From Thermoplasmata archaeon (GTDB lineage Archaea; Thermoplasmatota; Thermoplasmata; Thermoplasmatales; Thermoplasmataceae): a DNA stretch of 14,246 nucleotides. Positions 1,097-6,014 of this stretch are shown piece after piece. Below the pieces are notes generated by a model. That model saw only the letters and a list, made by a program, of their open reading frames with translations. It did not search any database and was not told the DNA's origin. The DNA is taken from contig JAKAAA010000019.1 in NCBI GenBank assembly GCA_021797295.1, forward strand, positions 1 through 14,246, given 5' to 3'. The first letter of the stretch is position 1; each line of letters begins with the position of its first letter. The position numbers were made by a program, and so were the translations under genes.

Positions 1097-2386
1097 ATGG
1101 GAAAGGCGTATATAGTTGGCTGTGGACCCGGAAACAGGGACATGCTCACTGTAGCTGGTGCAAAGATAATAGCCAAGGCAGATACTTTAATTTATGATCA
1201 CCTTATCAATCCTGAGATTCTTGATATGGCAAAACCAGGATCCAATAAAATTTACGTGGGTAAAAAACCGTATACTAAGAGAATATCACAGGAGGAAATT
1301 AATAGAATATTAGTCAGCGAATCCATGAAAAGAAATACTGTGGTAAGGCTTAAGGGGGGAGACCCGTTTTTATTCGGCCGTGGGGGAGAGGAGATCGAGG
1401 AACTGATAAGGAACAATATAGAATACGAGATTATCCCCGGTGTTTCAGCCCTGATTTCCGTACCTGAATTTGCAGGAATACCACTAACACATAGAAATGT
1501 GAACCATGGAGTGATAGTTACCACAGGAAACAGCATTGAGAATCTGAGCATTCCACAGTGCCAAAAGTCTACGTGCAGCATGTACACCCTGGTGATTTTC
1601 ATGGGGGCTTATAATTTGAAAGGCTTAATAGAAAAACTGCTGTTATCGGGCTATAGCAATGATACACCTGTAGCAGTCATTGAAAATGGAACTTACAACC
1701 ATCAGAAAACATTCACAGGCACACTGGCGAATATAGATTATACATACAACGGTTCTCCTTCAATTATTGTTGTTGGAAATGTTGTTAATTATCATAGTAA
1801 TTTTCAGTTTATTGAAAATCGAAAATATTCAGGTAAAATTGTAACGGTATTTTATGATTTTTACCAGCCATCTACGGAATACCTTGAAAATAAAGGATTT
1901 ACTGTATATAAAATAAGGGAGTCACAAATATTCCCCGAAAAAATAGATGCAGAGTATTTATCGGGGAAAAATATAGCATTTGAGGGCAGATATGTGGAAA
2001 TAGTTTTAGAATTATTCAAATCCTCCATGTTAGATTTGCGAAAGATAGGAGAAATTGCAACTGACAGAATGGGAAAAGAATTACTGAAATCGTATGGGAT
2101 TTTCGACGTCAAAGATATTTCAAAAATAGATAGTTCGTATACGAAACTATCATATAACAGGGGTGATGATGTACCTATAGCAAGGCTTAGAAAGGTTAAC
2201 TTCAATGATTATATTCAGGATTACATTGAAAAATCTGATCTGATAGTTCTAGCAGGCACATCGAATTCCATTCCGGAAGATATAAAAATTTCCAGGAAAA
2301 TTCCGGTAATAAGAGTGGAATATCCATATGACAACATGGACAGTAGGATTATGTGGTTCTTCGGAGGGCATTATGAAGAGAATTAA
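1097..2386 (+). CDS. cobA: Uroporphyrinogen-III C-methyltransferase (SUMT) fused to a HemD-like domain
   Basis: The 429-residue protein has two parts. Residues 1-235 form a complete SUMT: a SAM loop GCGPGN (8-13), the Q-E-I-N motif near 65-69, RLKGGDPFLFGRG (84-96), IIPGVSALISVPEFAGIPLTHR (112-133) and MGAYNL (169-174). SUMT uses two SAM to methylate uroporphyrinogen III at C2 and C7, giving precorrin-2 for cobalamin or siroheme. Residues 245-429 resemble uroporphyrinogen-III synthase (HemD) in arrangement: a lobe beginning KIVTVFYDF, a G-E-I-A-T-x-x-M segment like the HemD I-G-x-x-T-A region, and a final lobe with SDLIVLAGTSNS. The HemD half is diverged and its assignment is weaker. CobA-HemD fusions are known in bacteria. 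This is the first gene of the operon, with ATG chosen about 25 bp from the TATA box. Its last 14 bp overlap the next gene. Confidence 0.9.
   Translation: MGKAYIVGCGPGNRDMLTVAGAKIIAKADTLIYDHLINPEILDMAKPGSNKIYVGKKPYTKRISQEEINRILVSESMKRNTVVRLKGGDPFLFGRGGEEIEELIRNNIEYEIIPGVSALISVPEFAGIPLTHRNVNHGVIVTTGNSIENLSIPQCQKSTCSMYTLVIFMGAYNLKGLIEKLLLSGYSNDTPVAVIENGTYNHQKTFTGTLANIDYTYNGSPSIIVVGNVVNYHSNFQFIENRKYSGKIVTVFYDFYQPSTEYLENKGFTVYKIRESQIFPEKIDAEYLSGKNIAFEGRYVEIVLELFKSSMLDLRKIGEIATDRMGKELLKSYGIFDVKDISKIDSSYTKLSYNRGDDVPIARLRKVNFNDYIQDYIEKSDLIVLAGTSNSIPEDIKISRKIPVIRVEYPYDNMDSRIMWFFGGHYEEN
2363..2368 (+). promoter_or_regulatory. Ribosome binding site deciding the cbiET start
   Basis: GGAGGG lies 4 nt before the ATG at 2373, inside the end of cobA. 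It supports 2373 over the upstream in-frame ATG at 2328, which would add 15 residues before the conserved MKRINVVGIFPG start. Confidence 0.7.
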
Positions 2387-3566
2387 CGTTGTGGGAATTT
2401 TCCCTGGAAGGATACCTGTACAGGAGGCTATTGAGTGCATAAACGGCAGCGATATAATCTTCTCCGGTGCGCGTAATATGCATCTTTTTAAACATTCTGG
2501 TAAGACTATGGTAAAAATTGGAGAATTCAAAAAATTCCAGGAGGACCTGATATCAGCGTATAATACCGGCAAAGTGATAACCGTAATATCCACTGGAGAC
2601 CCTCTATTTTATGGCATTGGAAGGTATATTACTGACAACTATAAATCAGATGAGGTTAATATTATTCCAGAAGTCAGTTCGATTCAGGTTGCACTTTCCA
2701 AAATAGCACTTGATTCCAGGGGGATCTACACTGTTAGTCTCCATGGAAGGCCTTTAAAGGGATTGGCCCAAAAAATACGCAATAAAAATAAAGTCTGTAT
2801 ATTTACAGACAGCGTAAATACGCCCGGGGTCATAGCAAAATACATGGTCAGATTCGGGCTGATATCATACAGAGCGTATATATTCGAGGACCTGGGATAT
2901 GAAAACGAGAAAATATCAAGTTCCTCCATAAATGAATTGGTGGATAGAGAATTTGAACCCCTGAATCTTATAATACTTACATCAGAAAACAATCATAAAA
3001 TCTCAATACCGGATGATGACGTGTTTATCAGGCATAAGGGAAATATTACAAAACAGGAAATAAGGAATATCTCAATTTCCAATCTGGAACTAGAGGATGG
3101 GGAAACATTCTGGGATATAGGTTCAGGTTCAGGGTCTGTGGCAATAGCGGCATCATTCCAGAACTGGACTGGAGATATTTATGCAGTAGAGAAAAGCACG
3201 GAACTCTGCGAAAATATACAGACAAATATGGAGATGTGTGCAACCGATATAAATATTATAAATGGAATGGCTCCGGGTGCGCTTCATGATCTTCCTGATC
3301 CGGATTGCGTTTTTATAGGGGGTTCGTCAGGCAAAATTATGGACATAATGGATTATTCATACACTAGAATGAGAACAAATGGAAGGCTGGTTATGAATAT
3401 AACAACCATTGAAAATTTGGAGAAGGCAATTGATTATATTGAATCCAGAAATTTGAAAGCGGAAATAAGGCAGATAAACATATCCAAACTTATGCCTCTG
3501 TCAAAATACAAAAGATTTATCCCCATGGATCAGATTTATATCATAAAGGTGGTCAAGAACGAGTAA
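2373..3566 (+). CDS. cbiET: Fused CbiE-CbiT: precorrin/cobalt-precorrin C5,C15-methyltransferase and decarboxylase
   Basis: The protein has 397 residues from the ATG at 2373. The CbiE half (about 1-205) is a tetrapyrrole methylase: NVVGIFPG (5-12), VISTGDPLFYGIG (71-83), IIPEVSSIQVALSK (97-110) and SLHGRPL (122-128). The CbiT half (about 215-397) is a class I SAM methyltransferase: HKGNITKQEIR (221-231), WDIGSGSGSVAIA (247-259) and FIGGSSGKI (314-322). Together these methylate C5 and C15 of the corrin ring and remove the C12 acetate carboxyl, as in CobL. The two halves are separate genes in many archaea; here they are one chain. The start overlaps cobA by 14 bp behind a good ribosome binding site, and the end overlaps cbiL. 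Whether it acts in the cobalt-early or cobalt-late pathway cannot be seen here. Confidence 0.92.
   Translation: MKRINVVGIFPGRIPVQEAIECINGSDIIFSGARNMHLFKHSGKTMVKIGEFKKFQEDLISAYNTGKVITVISTGDPLFYGIGRYITDNYKSDEVNIIPEVSSIQVALSKIALDSRGIYTVSLHGRPLKGLAQKIRNKNKVCIFTDSVNTPGVIAKYMVRFGLISYRAYIFEDLGYENEKISSSSINELVDREFEPLNLIILTSENNHKISIPDDDVFIRHKGNITKQEIRNISISNLELEDGETFWDIGSGSGSVAIAASFQNWTGDIYAVEKSTELCENIQTNMEMCATDINIINGMAPGALHDLPDPDCVFIGGSSGKIMDIMDYSYTRMRTNGRLVMNITTIENLEKAIDYIESRNLKAEIRQINISKLMPLSKYKRFIPMDQIYIIKVVKNE
3547..3553 (+). promoter_or_regulatory. Shine-Dalgarno-like sequence before the unusual cbiL start
   Basis: AGGTGGT sits at the 3' end of cbiET. AGGTG matches the archaeal 16S tail complement (GGAGGTGAT), and 7 nt lie between that G (3551) and the ACG at 3559. 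The GTG at 3607 lies far downstream and has no comparable site. Confidence 0.5.
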
Positions 3567-4218
3567 TTTTACCGTTGTCGGTCTCGGCCCCGGAGACCCT
3601 GAGCTTGTGACGGTGAAGGGATACAGGGCTCTGAATGATGCTGATATAGTATTTTATCCCAAAACATCATTGAATTCGGCAGAAAATATACTGTTAGCAC
3701 TGGGAATTAACAGAAACAAAATGAGACCAATGGAATTTCCCATATGGGATGCAAAATTGACAGAGCTCTGTGCAGGATACGGAAAAATGATCATGGAAGC
3801 ATCTCGTACGAATATTAAATCAGTATATGCCGTGGAGGGTGAGCCCATGTTATACAGCACTTTTCTTGACATAATGCCATTTCTGAATATGGAATACTCA
3901 GTAATTCCGGGAATCAGTTCCATGAACGGGATTTCCGCTGCAATGAGAATTATTCTGGCAACAAAGAATGAACCATTACAGATAATTCCGGCCATAAAGG
4001 ATTACACGTACATGGAGGAAAGAATAATGTCCATGCCTAATACAGTTATATTCAAGGCTATAAAAGCGAAGGATATAATTAATGATATTATAAAGAAACA
4101 TGGTATAAAGCACTATTTCATCATGAGTGATGTGTCTACCGATAGGGAAAGAATTTATAATAATATTGATGATATAAGGGATTACATGACTATAGTGGTG
4201 ATAAAACGATACATATAA
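3559..4218 (+). CDS. cbiL: Precorrin-2/cobalt-factor II C20-methyltransferase, apparent ACG start
   Basis: This SAM-dependent methylase adds the C20 methyl to (cobalt-)precorrin-2. It has 219 residues if started at ACG 3559. The reading frame carries VVGLGPGDPELVTVKGYRAL, the N-terminal SAM-binding strand and loop of the family. It also has AVEGEPMLYSTF (about 91-102; family form EGDPxLYST, here with Glu for Asp), VIPGISSMNGISAA and a C-terminal IMSDVS segment. The first ordinary start codon is GTG 3607, and using it would delete the SAM loop. Upstream of that the frame is open only from 3547 and holds no ATG, GTG or TTG. ACG at 3559, with AGGTG just before it, is the best fit. A frameshift product continuing from cbiET (+1) or a sequencing error are alternatives. 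With ACG it overlaps cbiET by 8 bp. Family assignment is firm; the start is inferred. Confidence 0.85.
   Translation, partial: TSNFTVVGLGPGDPELVTVKGYRALNDADIVFYPKTSLNSAENILLALGINRNKMRPMEFPIWDAKLTELCAGYGKMIMEASRTNIKSVYAVEGEPMLYSTFLDIMPFLNMEYSVIPGISSMNGISAAMRIILATKNEPLQIIPAIKDYTYMEERIMSMPNTVIFKAIKAKDIINDIIKKHGIKHYFIMSDVSTDRERIYNNIDDIRDYMTIVVIKRYI
4197..4202 (+). promoter_or_regulatory. Shine-Dalgarno sequence before the unusual cbiF start
   Basis: GGTGAT is a perfect complement to the AUCACC of the archaeal 16S tail. It precedes ACG (4206) by 3 nt and ATA (4209) by 6 nt, while the first in-frame ATG is 165 nt downstream. It lies in the last codons of cbiL. Confidence 0.55.
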
Positions 4219-4967
4219 TAGGAGCTGGCCCCGGTGACCCTGAACTTCTTACTGTAAAGGCAAAAAGAACTATAGATTCGGCAGATGTTATAATTTATGC
4301 CGATTCGCTGGTAAACCCTGAAGTTTTTTCGGATAGCAGGGCAAACACTATAATAAAAACATCAACCATGAACATCGATGAAATTAATGAAGCAGTTAAG
4401 AAGTATTATGACCAGGAAAAGGAAATTGTAAGGCTTCACAGCGGCGACCCATCCATATACGGTGCAATAAATGATGAAATGCAATTTTTCAGGGAAAATG
4501 GCATGAAATTTGAAATAATTCCCGGAATCAGTTCTGTGTTTGCTGCTGCCGCAAGCCTGGGTATGGAGTTGACAGCGCCGGGTACAACGCAGTCTGTTAT
4601 ACTCACACGGGTGCCGAGAAGAACAGAACATTTCGAAAAAGAGGATTTGGAATTGCTGGCCGCGCATAAAACATCACTGGCAATATTTCTCAGCGCTTCC
4701 AATGCCAAAAAAGTGAGTACCAAATTGATCGGTGCCGGATATTCTCCTGAAGACCGTGCAGTTATAGCGTACAGGGTGTCATGGCCAGATGAAAAAATGA
4801 TAATGTCAACTGTTGGAAATCTGGAACATGCCATGTTTGAAAATAAGATAAACAGACAGGCGTTGATACTGGTGGGCGGCAACATTTCATATTATTCTGA
4901 TAAAAAATCTTACCTTTATAATCCTGATTTTACACATCTTTTCAGAAAATCATCCGAAAAGAGTTGA
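4206..4967 (+). CDS. cbiF: Precorrin-4/cobalt-precorrin-4 C11-methyltransferase, apparent non-ATG start
   Basis: The protein has 253 residues if started at ACG 4206 (252 from ATA 4209). It methylates C11 in corrin ring synthesis. Hallmarks of CbiF/CobM are all present: HIIGAGPGDPELLTVKA at the N-terminus, ADVIIYADSLVNPE, RLHSGDPSIYGAI, IIPGISSVFAAAASLGMELT, SVILTRVPRRTE, IFLSASNAKKV and RVSWPDEKMI. The first in-frame ATG (4368) would remove the SAM loop and about 54 residues. No ATG, GTG or TTG exists between that motif and the upstream stop at 4170-4172. The ACG or ATA after GGTGAT is therefore the likely start, the same situation as in cbiL. It overlaps cbiL by 13 bp and the convergent gene by 18 bp. 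Family assignment is very secure; the start codon is inferred. Confidence 0.9.
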   Translation, partial: TIHIIGAGPGDPELLTVKAKRTIDSADVIIYADSLVNPEVFSDSRANTIIKTSTMNIDEINEAVKKYYDQEKEIVRLHSGDPSIYGAINDEMQFFRENGMKFEIIPGISSVFAAAASLGMELTAPGTTQSVILTRVPRRTEHFEKEDLELLAAHKTSLAIFLSASNAKKVSTKLIGAGYSPEDRAVIAYRVSWPDEKMIMSTVGNLEHAMFENKINRQALILVGGNISYYSDKKSYLYNPDFTHLFRKSSEKS

Positions 4968-6014
4968 TATAATATAATCCTGATCCCTTCCAATCGTATG
5001 TATTCTCTGGGTAATAAATTCTTTCGAAAGTTCATCTGGGTTTTCACTTATTTCTGGCAGGGCCTGCACCAGGGATTTTATAGAATCTGATTCTATTATT
5101 CTATAAAATATTTTTTCAAAGTCCATGGTATTTAACAGTTCAGCATTGTCCATTTTAAGTGATACAAGCTTCTTTTTTTTCTTTTCAAGTTCCATAATTT
5201 CATTAAAAAGTTTTTCTAGGGCATCTATGAGTATTTTTAAATCAAGATGCTTCACTAATTCCGGGCTTTCTGTTACTTTAACTGTAATTTCAGGATTTTC
5301 GAACTGTATATCCATAACTGAAGCACCTTTCTCGAATACAAAATAAAAGGATTTCTGTTCTCTGGACCTGATAAATCTGCACTCAAATTTATTGCCCTTA
5401 ATGTAACCGGATACCATATGGTATCCGTCAAGACTCTCATATGTCACATCATCTCCAATAACTGATACAGGAATTCTTATCCCGTTATAGAGTGATGCGA
5501 AAAATGGATTGGCCATAAACTGGCTTTCCATCTGATTTAAGAGGAAAACATATGAGAGACCGTAACTGGAATTTATAGATTCACGGATTTCAGAATTGTT
5601 TTCATCTATAGTAATTTTTATTTCTGAATTTAAAATTGTAAATGGGTTGAGAGAAAGGAATGCCTCCATTATTCGTGTACCGTTTTCCACATCCTTTTCC
5701 ATCCCTAATTTCAGATCTGCAATCTCCGAGAGTGCCTGATGTGAATTCCTTGTAAAGAATTGATCTGTATATGTGTTAATGGATTCCATTATATGATCTT
5801 CATAGATCCTAAAATCTTCATAGTTTGTAACAAAGTGATCCATTTCTTCCTTGATTTTGCCTTTCATCAGTTCTATGGATTTTTTATCATTTTCAAGCAT
5901 TTGTGTGATTTCCTCGATATGTGTGGATTTGGTATCTCTTTCTACTTCATATGAAAACGAGTCCACCAGATACGAAAAAATATTTTTCAGCTCGTTCAGG
6001 TCGTTCTCGTTCAT
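4950..6014 (-). CDS. Unrecognised helical, charged protein of 354 residues
   Basis: I do not recognise a family. Residues 1-115 are highly charged and helix-prone with heptad-like spacing (N-E-N-D-L-N-E-L, then E-I-T-Q-M-L-E-N-D-K-K). A central part of about 125-250 looks beta-rich (EIKITIDENN, IRIPVSVIGDD, SFYFVFEKG, EITVKVTESPE). The tail of about 257-354 returns to helix, with a run of lysines (KKKKK near 278-282) suggesting a second coiled coil. There is only one cysteine, no signal peptide and no membrane helix, so a soluble structural or scaffold protein is plausible. The ATG at 6014 has a weak AGGTAATA leader and a TATA-like box about 24 bp upstream. It is monocistronic and its 3' end overlaps the convergent cbiF. 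Codon composition matches its neighbours. Confidence 0.8.
   Translation of the reverse strand: MNENDLNELKNIFSYLVDSFSYEVERDTKSTHIEEITQMLENDKKSIELMKGKIKEEMDHFVTNYEDFRIYEDHIMESINTYTDQFFTRNSHQALSEIADLKLGMEKDVENGTRIMEAFLSLNPFTILNSEIKITIDENNSEIRESINSSYGLSYVFLLNQMESQFMANPFFASLYNGIRIPVSVIGDDVTYESLDGYHMVSGYIKGNKFECRFIRSREQKSFYFVFEKGASVMDIQFENPEITVKVTESPELVKHLDLKILIDALEKLFNEIMELEKKKKKLVSLKMDNAELLNTMDFEKIFYRIIESDSIKSLVQALPEISENPDELSKEFITQRIHTIGRDQDYIISTLFG

Follow-up and report, generated by a model that had tools for sequence, protein, structure and literature searches.

The window, as we call the whole stretch of 14,246 nt of DNA analysed here, contains a run of four consecutive cobalamin genes, one at 1097-2386 and the three genes listed in Table 1. 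All four have a Pfam match to TP_methylase, and the nearest named relatives are Ferroplasma. The C-terminal half of the first product, past residue 213, has no Pfam match; from the usual gene order we presume that it is perhaps a divergent uroporphyrinogen-III synthase half. In the second gene the weak methyltransferase match falls in the CbiT half. The 3' end of the last gene overlaps tail-to-tail, by 18 nt (4950-4967), with a convergent ORF on the minus strand (4950-6014), whose product of 354 aa lacks Pfam matches at E 0.001.

Table 1. Features of the cbiL and cbiF start regions (positions in the window)
Feature	Position	Strand	Remarks
Upstream gene, cbiE-cbiT fusion (name given here)	2373..3566	+	TP_methylase and weak methyltransferase match; ATG 2373 is the presumed start
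GGTGGT, Shine-Dalgarno (SD)-like site of cbiL	3548..3553	+	
ACG, proposed cbiL start	3559..3561	+	
cbiL, precorrin-2 / cobalt-factor-2 C20-methyltransferase	3559..4218	+	Protein end ...VVIKRYI; 13-nt overlap with cbiF
18-nt run shared by the window and 12 genomes (13 sequences)	4196..4213	+	
GGTGAT, Shine-Dalgarno of cbiF, within cbiL coding sequence	4197..4202	+	Complementary to 16S 3' end; spacing 3 nt
ACG, proposed cbiF start codon	4206..4208	+	Its C and G open the Arg codon CGA in the cbiL frame
cbiF, cobalt-precorrin-4 / precorrin-4 C11-methyltransferase, read from ACG	4206..4967	+	Pfam TP_methylase from residue 1
cbiL stop TAA	4216..4218	+	7 nt downstream of cbiF ACG

The last gene belongs to the CbiF family: its product has the TP_methylase domain and an N-terminal GAGPGDP loop, and the solved structures nearest to it are CbiF, aligned from residue 2 (2cbf, 1cbf, 4e16) or from residue 1 (3ndc, 3nei). 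The first-pass annotation of this DNA had claimed that its frame lacks an ordinary start, and a base-by-base check agrees: upstream of the ACG the frame is closed by TGA at 4170-4172, and the 11 codons in between (4173-4205) hold no ATG, GTG or TTG. The same annotation had placed the ACG and a following ATA behind a perfect SD and had warned that the first ATG would remove the S-adenosylmethionine (SAM) loop. Both statements stand. GGTGAT has perfect complementarity to the 16S rRNA 3' end of F. acidarmanus (GGATCACCTCC), ATA (4209-4211) directly follows the ACG, and the first ATG (4368) lies past GAGPGDP; a start there would cost this loop, since the alignment to solved CbiF structures begins at residue 1 or 2. 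With its 13-nt overlap and the SD of the downstream gene inside the upstream one, the junction has the layout of coupled overlapping genes.

Recurrence of the ACG among related genomes

A comparison of junctions in relatives had been proposed together with these claims, and it bears on them directly. In the order to which G001 belongs, 117 genomes were searched at E 1e-30 and 22 gave a cbiF match; a separate DNA scan gave 13 loci, one of which (L012) covers part of cbiL only and lacks the cbiF junction. The ACG is found in 12 of the 22 genomes (G001, G002, G003, G063-G070 and G096), which are Ferroplasma-type and Picrophilus-type; G096 is of the latter type, its CbiL containing P0148, named Picrophilus oshimae at source. 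The complete F. acidarmanus Fer1 chromosome is among the carriers. ATG stands at the same codon in three of the 22 (G004, G045, G046), and in the alignment Acidiplasma aeolicum and two other genomes show ATG opposite the ACG. The remaining seven genomes are more distant and carry an ATG slightly further upstream, by one to a few codons; in one of these (G102, locus L033) the cbiF frame is broken soon after the apparent ATG start.

Together with the window, the carriers make 13 ACG sequences, G001 and G063 having identical CbiL and CbiF proteins. In none of the 13 loci could a canonical start codon account for the conserved N-terminus. Starts further upstream were considered and rejected: 8-12 open codons precede the ACG, behind differing stops, and no locus has a canonical codon among them. 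That the cbiF frame offers an ACG behind an SD and no canonical start is a real, confirmed observation, and its recurrence in 12 other genomes makes it more than chance. Of 400 genomes drawn from the class, a set without G002 and G003, 10 contain a 21-nt pattern of the junction, each of them once; all 10 belong to the 12 ACG genomes, and the reversed control gave no match in the 400.

A sequencing error or a decaying gene would be next to negligible as an explanation. The same cbiF bases in 12 other genomes, one of them a complete chromosome, refute error for cbiF, and for cbiL a second, separate assembly (L001, from WH1.bin9) speaks against it. The first-pass annotation had argued against a random error from the like placement of the ACG in two consecutive genes, and on this point it is supported. 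Values of dN/dS are 0.11 for cbiF against L001 and about 0.05 against L018, L002 and L004; for cbiL they are about 0.1 (about 0.11 against L001). The N-terminus of cbiF is under purifying selection. It should be noted that the ACG-bearing genomes share descent and their conservation is not independent, and therefore we give no simple probability for constraint. A tree of CbiF and CbiL requires at least two changes of the ACG label, with long branches and two open forks; an ACG gained twice, or gained once and then twice replaced by ATG, would both be compatible with it.

The ACG of cbiL has a different distribution. In its frame the stop TAA (3544-3546) is followed by ACG 3559, and the first canonical codon is GTG 3607. 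Among the loci compared, this ACG occurs in the window and L001 only; ATG stands there in 11 of the 12 other loci (of which L004 and L012 are contigs of the same MAG), and in L013 there is an ATG close by. The SD-like GGTGGT is shared by the window and L001, and L002 has GGTGAT at that place. Nothing forces ACG at cbiL, because either base gives Asn in the cbiET frame (AAT or AAC). The cbiL ACG is younger than that of cbiF, silent in cbiET and free of coding conflict. P0123, identical to L001 in 197 of 200 residues, is likewise annotated short. The first-pass annotation had seen one pattern repeated in two consecutive genes; this is true of the sequence, but not of a single device, since at cbiF the ACG is old and bound to the Lys-Arg end of CbiL, and at cbiL it is recent and free. 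The interpretation given there is thus supported in part only. The deliberate low-efficiency start that it suggested, perhaps setting subunit ratios through coupling, would be a hypothesis, and we know of no complex with CbiL and CbiF as subunits.

Codon constraint and the end of CbiL

Across the 13 ACG sequences the longest other identical run in cbiL or cbiF is 5 nt, against 18 nt at the junction. Among residue-invariant degenerate codons, 6 of 56 keep one codon in cbiL, five of these six being codons 214-218, and 6 of 99 do so in cbiF, codons 1, 2 and 4 included. The CbiF protein is no explanation for the fixation of cbiL codons 214-216, because they precede cbiF; they form its SD and spacer.

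The next codon carries the conflict between the two genes. Arg217 of CbiL is CGA in 13/13 ACG sequences, a codon used for 1.4% of the Arg residues in a sample of 1856 from F. acidarmanus, and within CbiF all five invariant Arg columns vary in codon. The last base of this CGA is fixed by cbiF codon 2, the first is not: AGA would also encode Arg217 but would change the cbiF ACG to AAG. If ATG stood in place of ACG, AAA CGA in the cbiL frame would become AAA TGA and the Arg would be removed. The genomes with ATG are informative here. Acidiplasma aeolicum has a 4-nt ATGA overlap and its CbiL ends in a single Lys; in L009 and L010 cbiF begins with ATG 293 and 198 nt downstream of cbiL, and the CbiL end differs. 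(Such spacers, of 198-293 nt in these two loci, include that at L009:6643-6935.) Overlap and Arg accompany the ACG in 13/13 cases, and ATG at that codon goes with the loss of one or both in 3/3.

A basic residue at the end of CbiL is common beyond this group. The 119 CbiL rows compared come from the 120 matches listed of 209; the column is Arg in 24 of 27 closer rows and basic in 89 of 92 more distant ones (P0150-P0241, the named ones bacterial). The Tyr-Ile/Thr past the Arg is fixed by cbiF codons and has no evidential value. The Arg is dispensable, because three genomes manage without the ACG.

Proposed initiation at the junction and its alternatives

We consider it likely that ACG 4206 is the true start of cbiF and that the overlapping end of cbiL has kept it from becoming ATG. 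GGTGAT, 3 nt upstream, would direct initiation to the ACG; ribosomes finishing cbiL, with their stop 7 nt past it, would probably help to place initiation, and the Met-initiator tRNA would read ACG despite the mismatch at the second base. The codon would then strike a balance between the demands of the two genes: these bases also spell the Lys-Arg end of CbiL (AAA CGA), which would keep ATG out. Use of the ACG for initiation, and help from cbiL-cbiF coupling, are both inferred from the DNA, as is a modest CbiF output. A short-leader reporter in Haloferax volcanii gave GUG 5-37 times weaker than AUG and undetectable UUG activity (PMC4574771); since GUG and UUG start so poorly there, efficient use of ACG would be surprising, although the strong SD and coupling might offset the poor codon.

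The ATA that follows is near-cognate too and invariant in 13/13, and P0003, which equals the CbiF of L018 past its Met, begins MHIIG, as though ATA were the start. A protein one residue shorter, with the ACG a mere bystander, is nevertheless unlikely. Among 58 starts behind GGTGAT, taken as shared canonical codons of which some may be wrong, the spacing is 3 nt in 17, 4 nt in 11, 5 nt in 22 and 6 nt in 2, so that 50 of 58 lie at 3-5 nt; the ACG is at 3 and the ATA at 6. Moreover, the ATG of relatives lines up with the ACG and not with the ATA, and a start at ATA gives no reason for the Arg remaining CGA instead of AGA.

A -1 frameshift at the AAAA of 4203-4206, fusing CbiL and CbiF into one chain, seems to us quite improbable, even though several of its ingredients are present: pairing at the Lys AAA can slip back by one base, a rare codon (CGA) follows in the zero frame, an SD stands just upstream and AAAACG is invariant. 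The stretch GTG ATA AAA CGA lacks a correctly phased X XXY YYZ heptamer, and within about 100 nt we found no convincing conserved RNA structure (consensus -2.8 kcal/mol, 13 pairs, one with a double change). Close upstream SDs are known for +1 shifts and are not known for -1. A fused chain would also have no linker at the joint, and AAA precedes the ATG in Acidiplasma, L009 and L010 as well, where a shift is unneeded.

A single C-to-U change in the mRNA would turn the junction into AUGA, terminating CbiL and starting CbiF, which is the arrangement that Acidiplasma carries in its DNA. We regard such editing as very improbable: it would throw away the CbiL Arg, and we know of no archaeal mRNA editing of this C-to-U start-codon kind. 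Just as far-fetched is a switch at C 4207, in which the unedited message would give CbiL with Lys-Arg and little CbiF, the edited one would end CbiL and start CbiF, and the cbiL ACG would be a second such site; if true, it would be, as far as we know, the first such mRNA editing in archaea. Conserved ACG codons are converted to AUG by C-to-U editing in fern organelles (PMC12548569).

How rare such a start is was assessed in 620 reciprocal-best ortholog pairs between 800 kb of G001 and 790 kb of G070 (about 42% of two Ferroplasma genomes), a screen that is blind to pairs in which a canonical codon follows within a few residues. In 9 of the 620 the alignment runs for at least 20 residues, in both genomes, before the first canonical codon is reached. 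Besides cbiF these comprise eight pairs that were put down by eye to shadow frames, to rRNA or to reading through into an adjacent frame. Partly on that judgement, cbiF alone clearly has a conserved core before the first canonical codon in both genomes. Shared-start pairs are ATG/ATG in 549 of 594. Five candidates for one-sided near-cognate starts, two of them ACG, were all unconvincing by eye. A tRNA scan of the 800 kb of G001 found one tRNA-Met with CAU, which has no bearing on the start question.

Database entries appear to be affected. Among the matches listed, 15 of the 19 closest CbiF proteins (P0003-P0021) lack the SAM-binding loop, and an ACG start, if true, explains such truncated entries. 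P0012 starts at an ATG present in its genome and P0018 at the ATG that Acidiplasma has; P0003 begins one residue later than the ACG start. P0015 is a 376-aa CbiL-CbiF chimera missing the CbiL end and the CbiF start, and looks like an internal deletion or a misassembly.

If ACG 4206 is indeed the start of cbiF, an ACG start has become established in a cobalamin (vitamin B12) gene of two lineages of acidophilic archaea, even though such a codon is expected to work very poorly. It would show the extent of second-base mismatch that archaeal start selection tolerates and would be a clear case of a start codon held off ATG by the end of a neighbouring gene.

Relation to known start codons and overlapping genes

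The protein itself is ordinary: compared with CbiF of 1cbf, 2cbf, 4e16 and 3ndc it matches over the full length, N-terminal loop included, and the start codon alone is odd. A near-cognate start is known from infC, which begins with AUU. A Halobacterium GUC start is cited in PMC4574771, and the archaeal starts named in a review are AUG, GUG and UUG (PMC7531240). Our literature search, made by titles and abstract openings in a library with few subscription papers and covering 15 of 292 records in one case, noticed no archaeal ACG start. The proposed cbiF start resembles the infC and Halobacterium cases in lying outside AUG, GUG and UUG, here on the evidence of sequence; it differs from them in mismatching at the second position, in being kept in two archaeal lineages and in apparently being held by an overlapping gene.

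Plant organelle genes with ACG starts, many of them edited to AUG, are described in PMC12548569. Like cbiF, they have a conserved ACG at the start codon, but organelles have an editing system, whereas at cbiF a second gene uses the same base.

Also close to our junction are the archaeal overlapping genes for which coupling by termination-reinitiation was shown (Huber et al. 2019, PMC6728339). Their ATGA stop-start pairs share with cbiL-cbiF a single operon, overlapping genes and a downstream SD inside the upstream gene, and the Acidiplasma junction is a plain ATGA pair of this type. The window differs from them in its 13-nt overlap, in its proposed ACG start and in that the change to ATG would at the same time bring a stop into the upstream gene.
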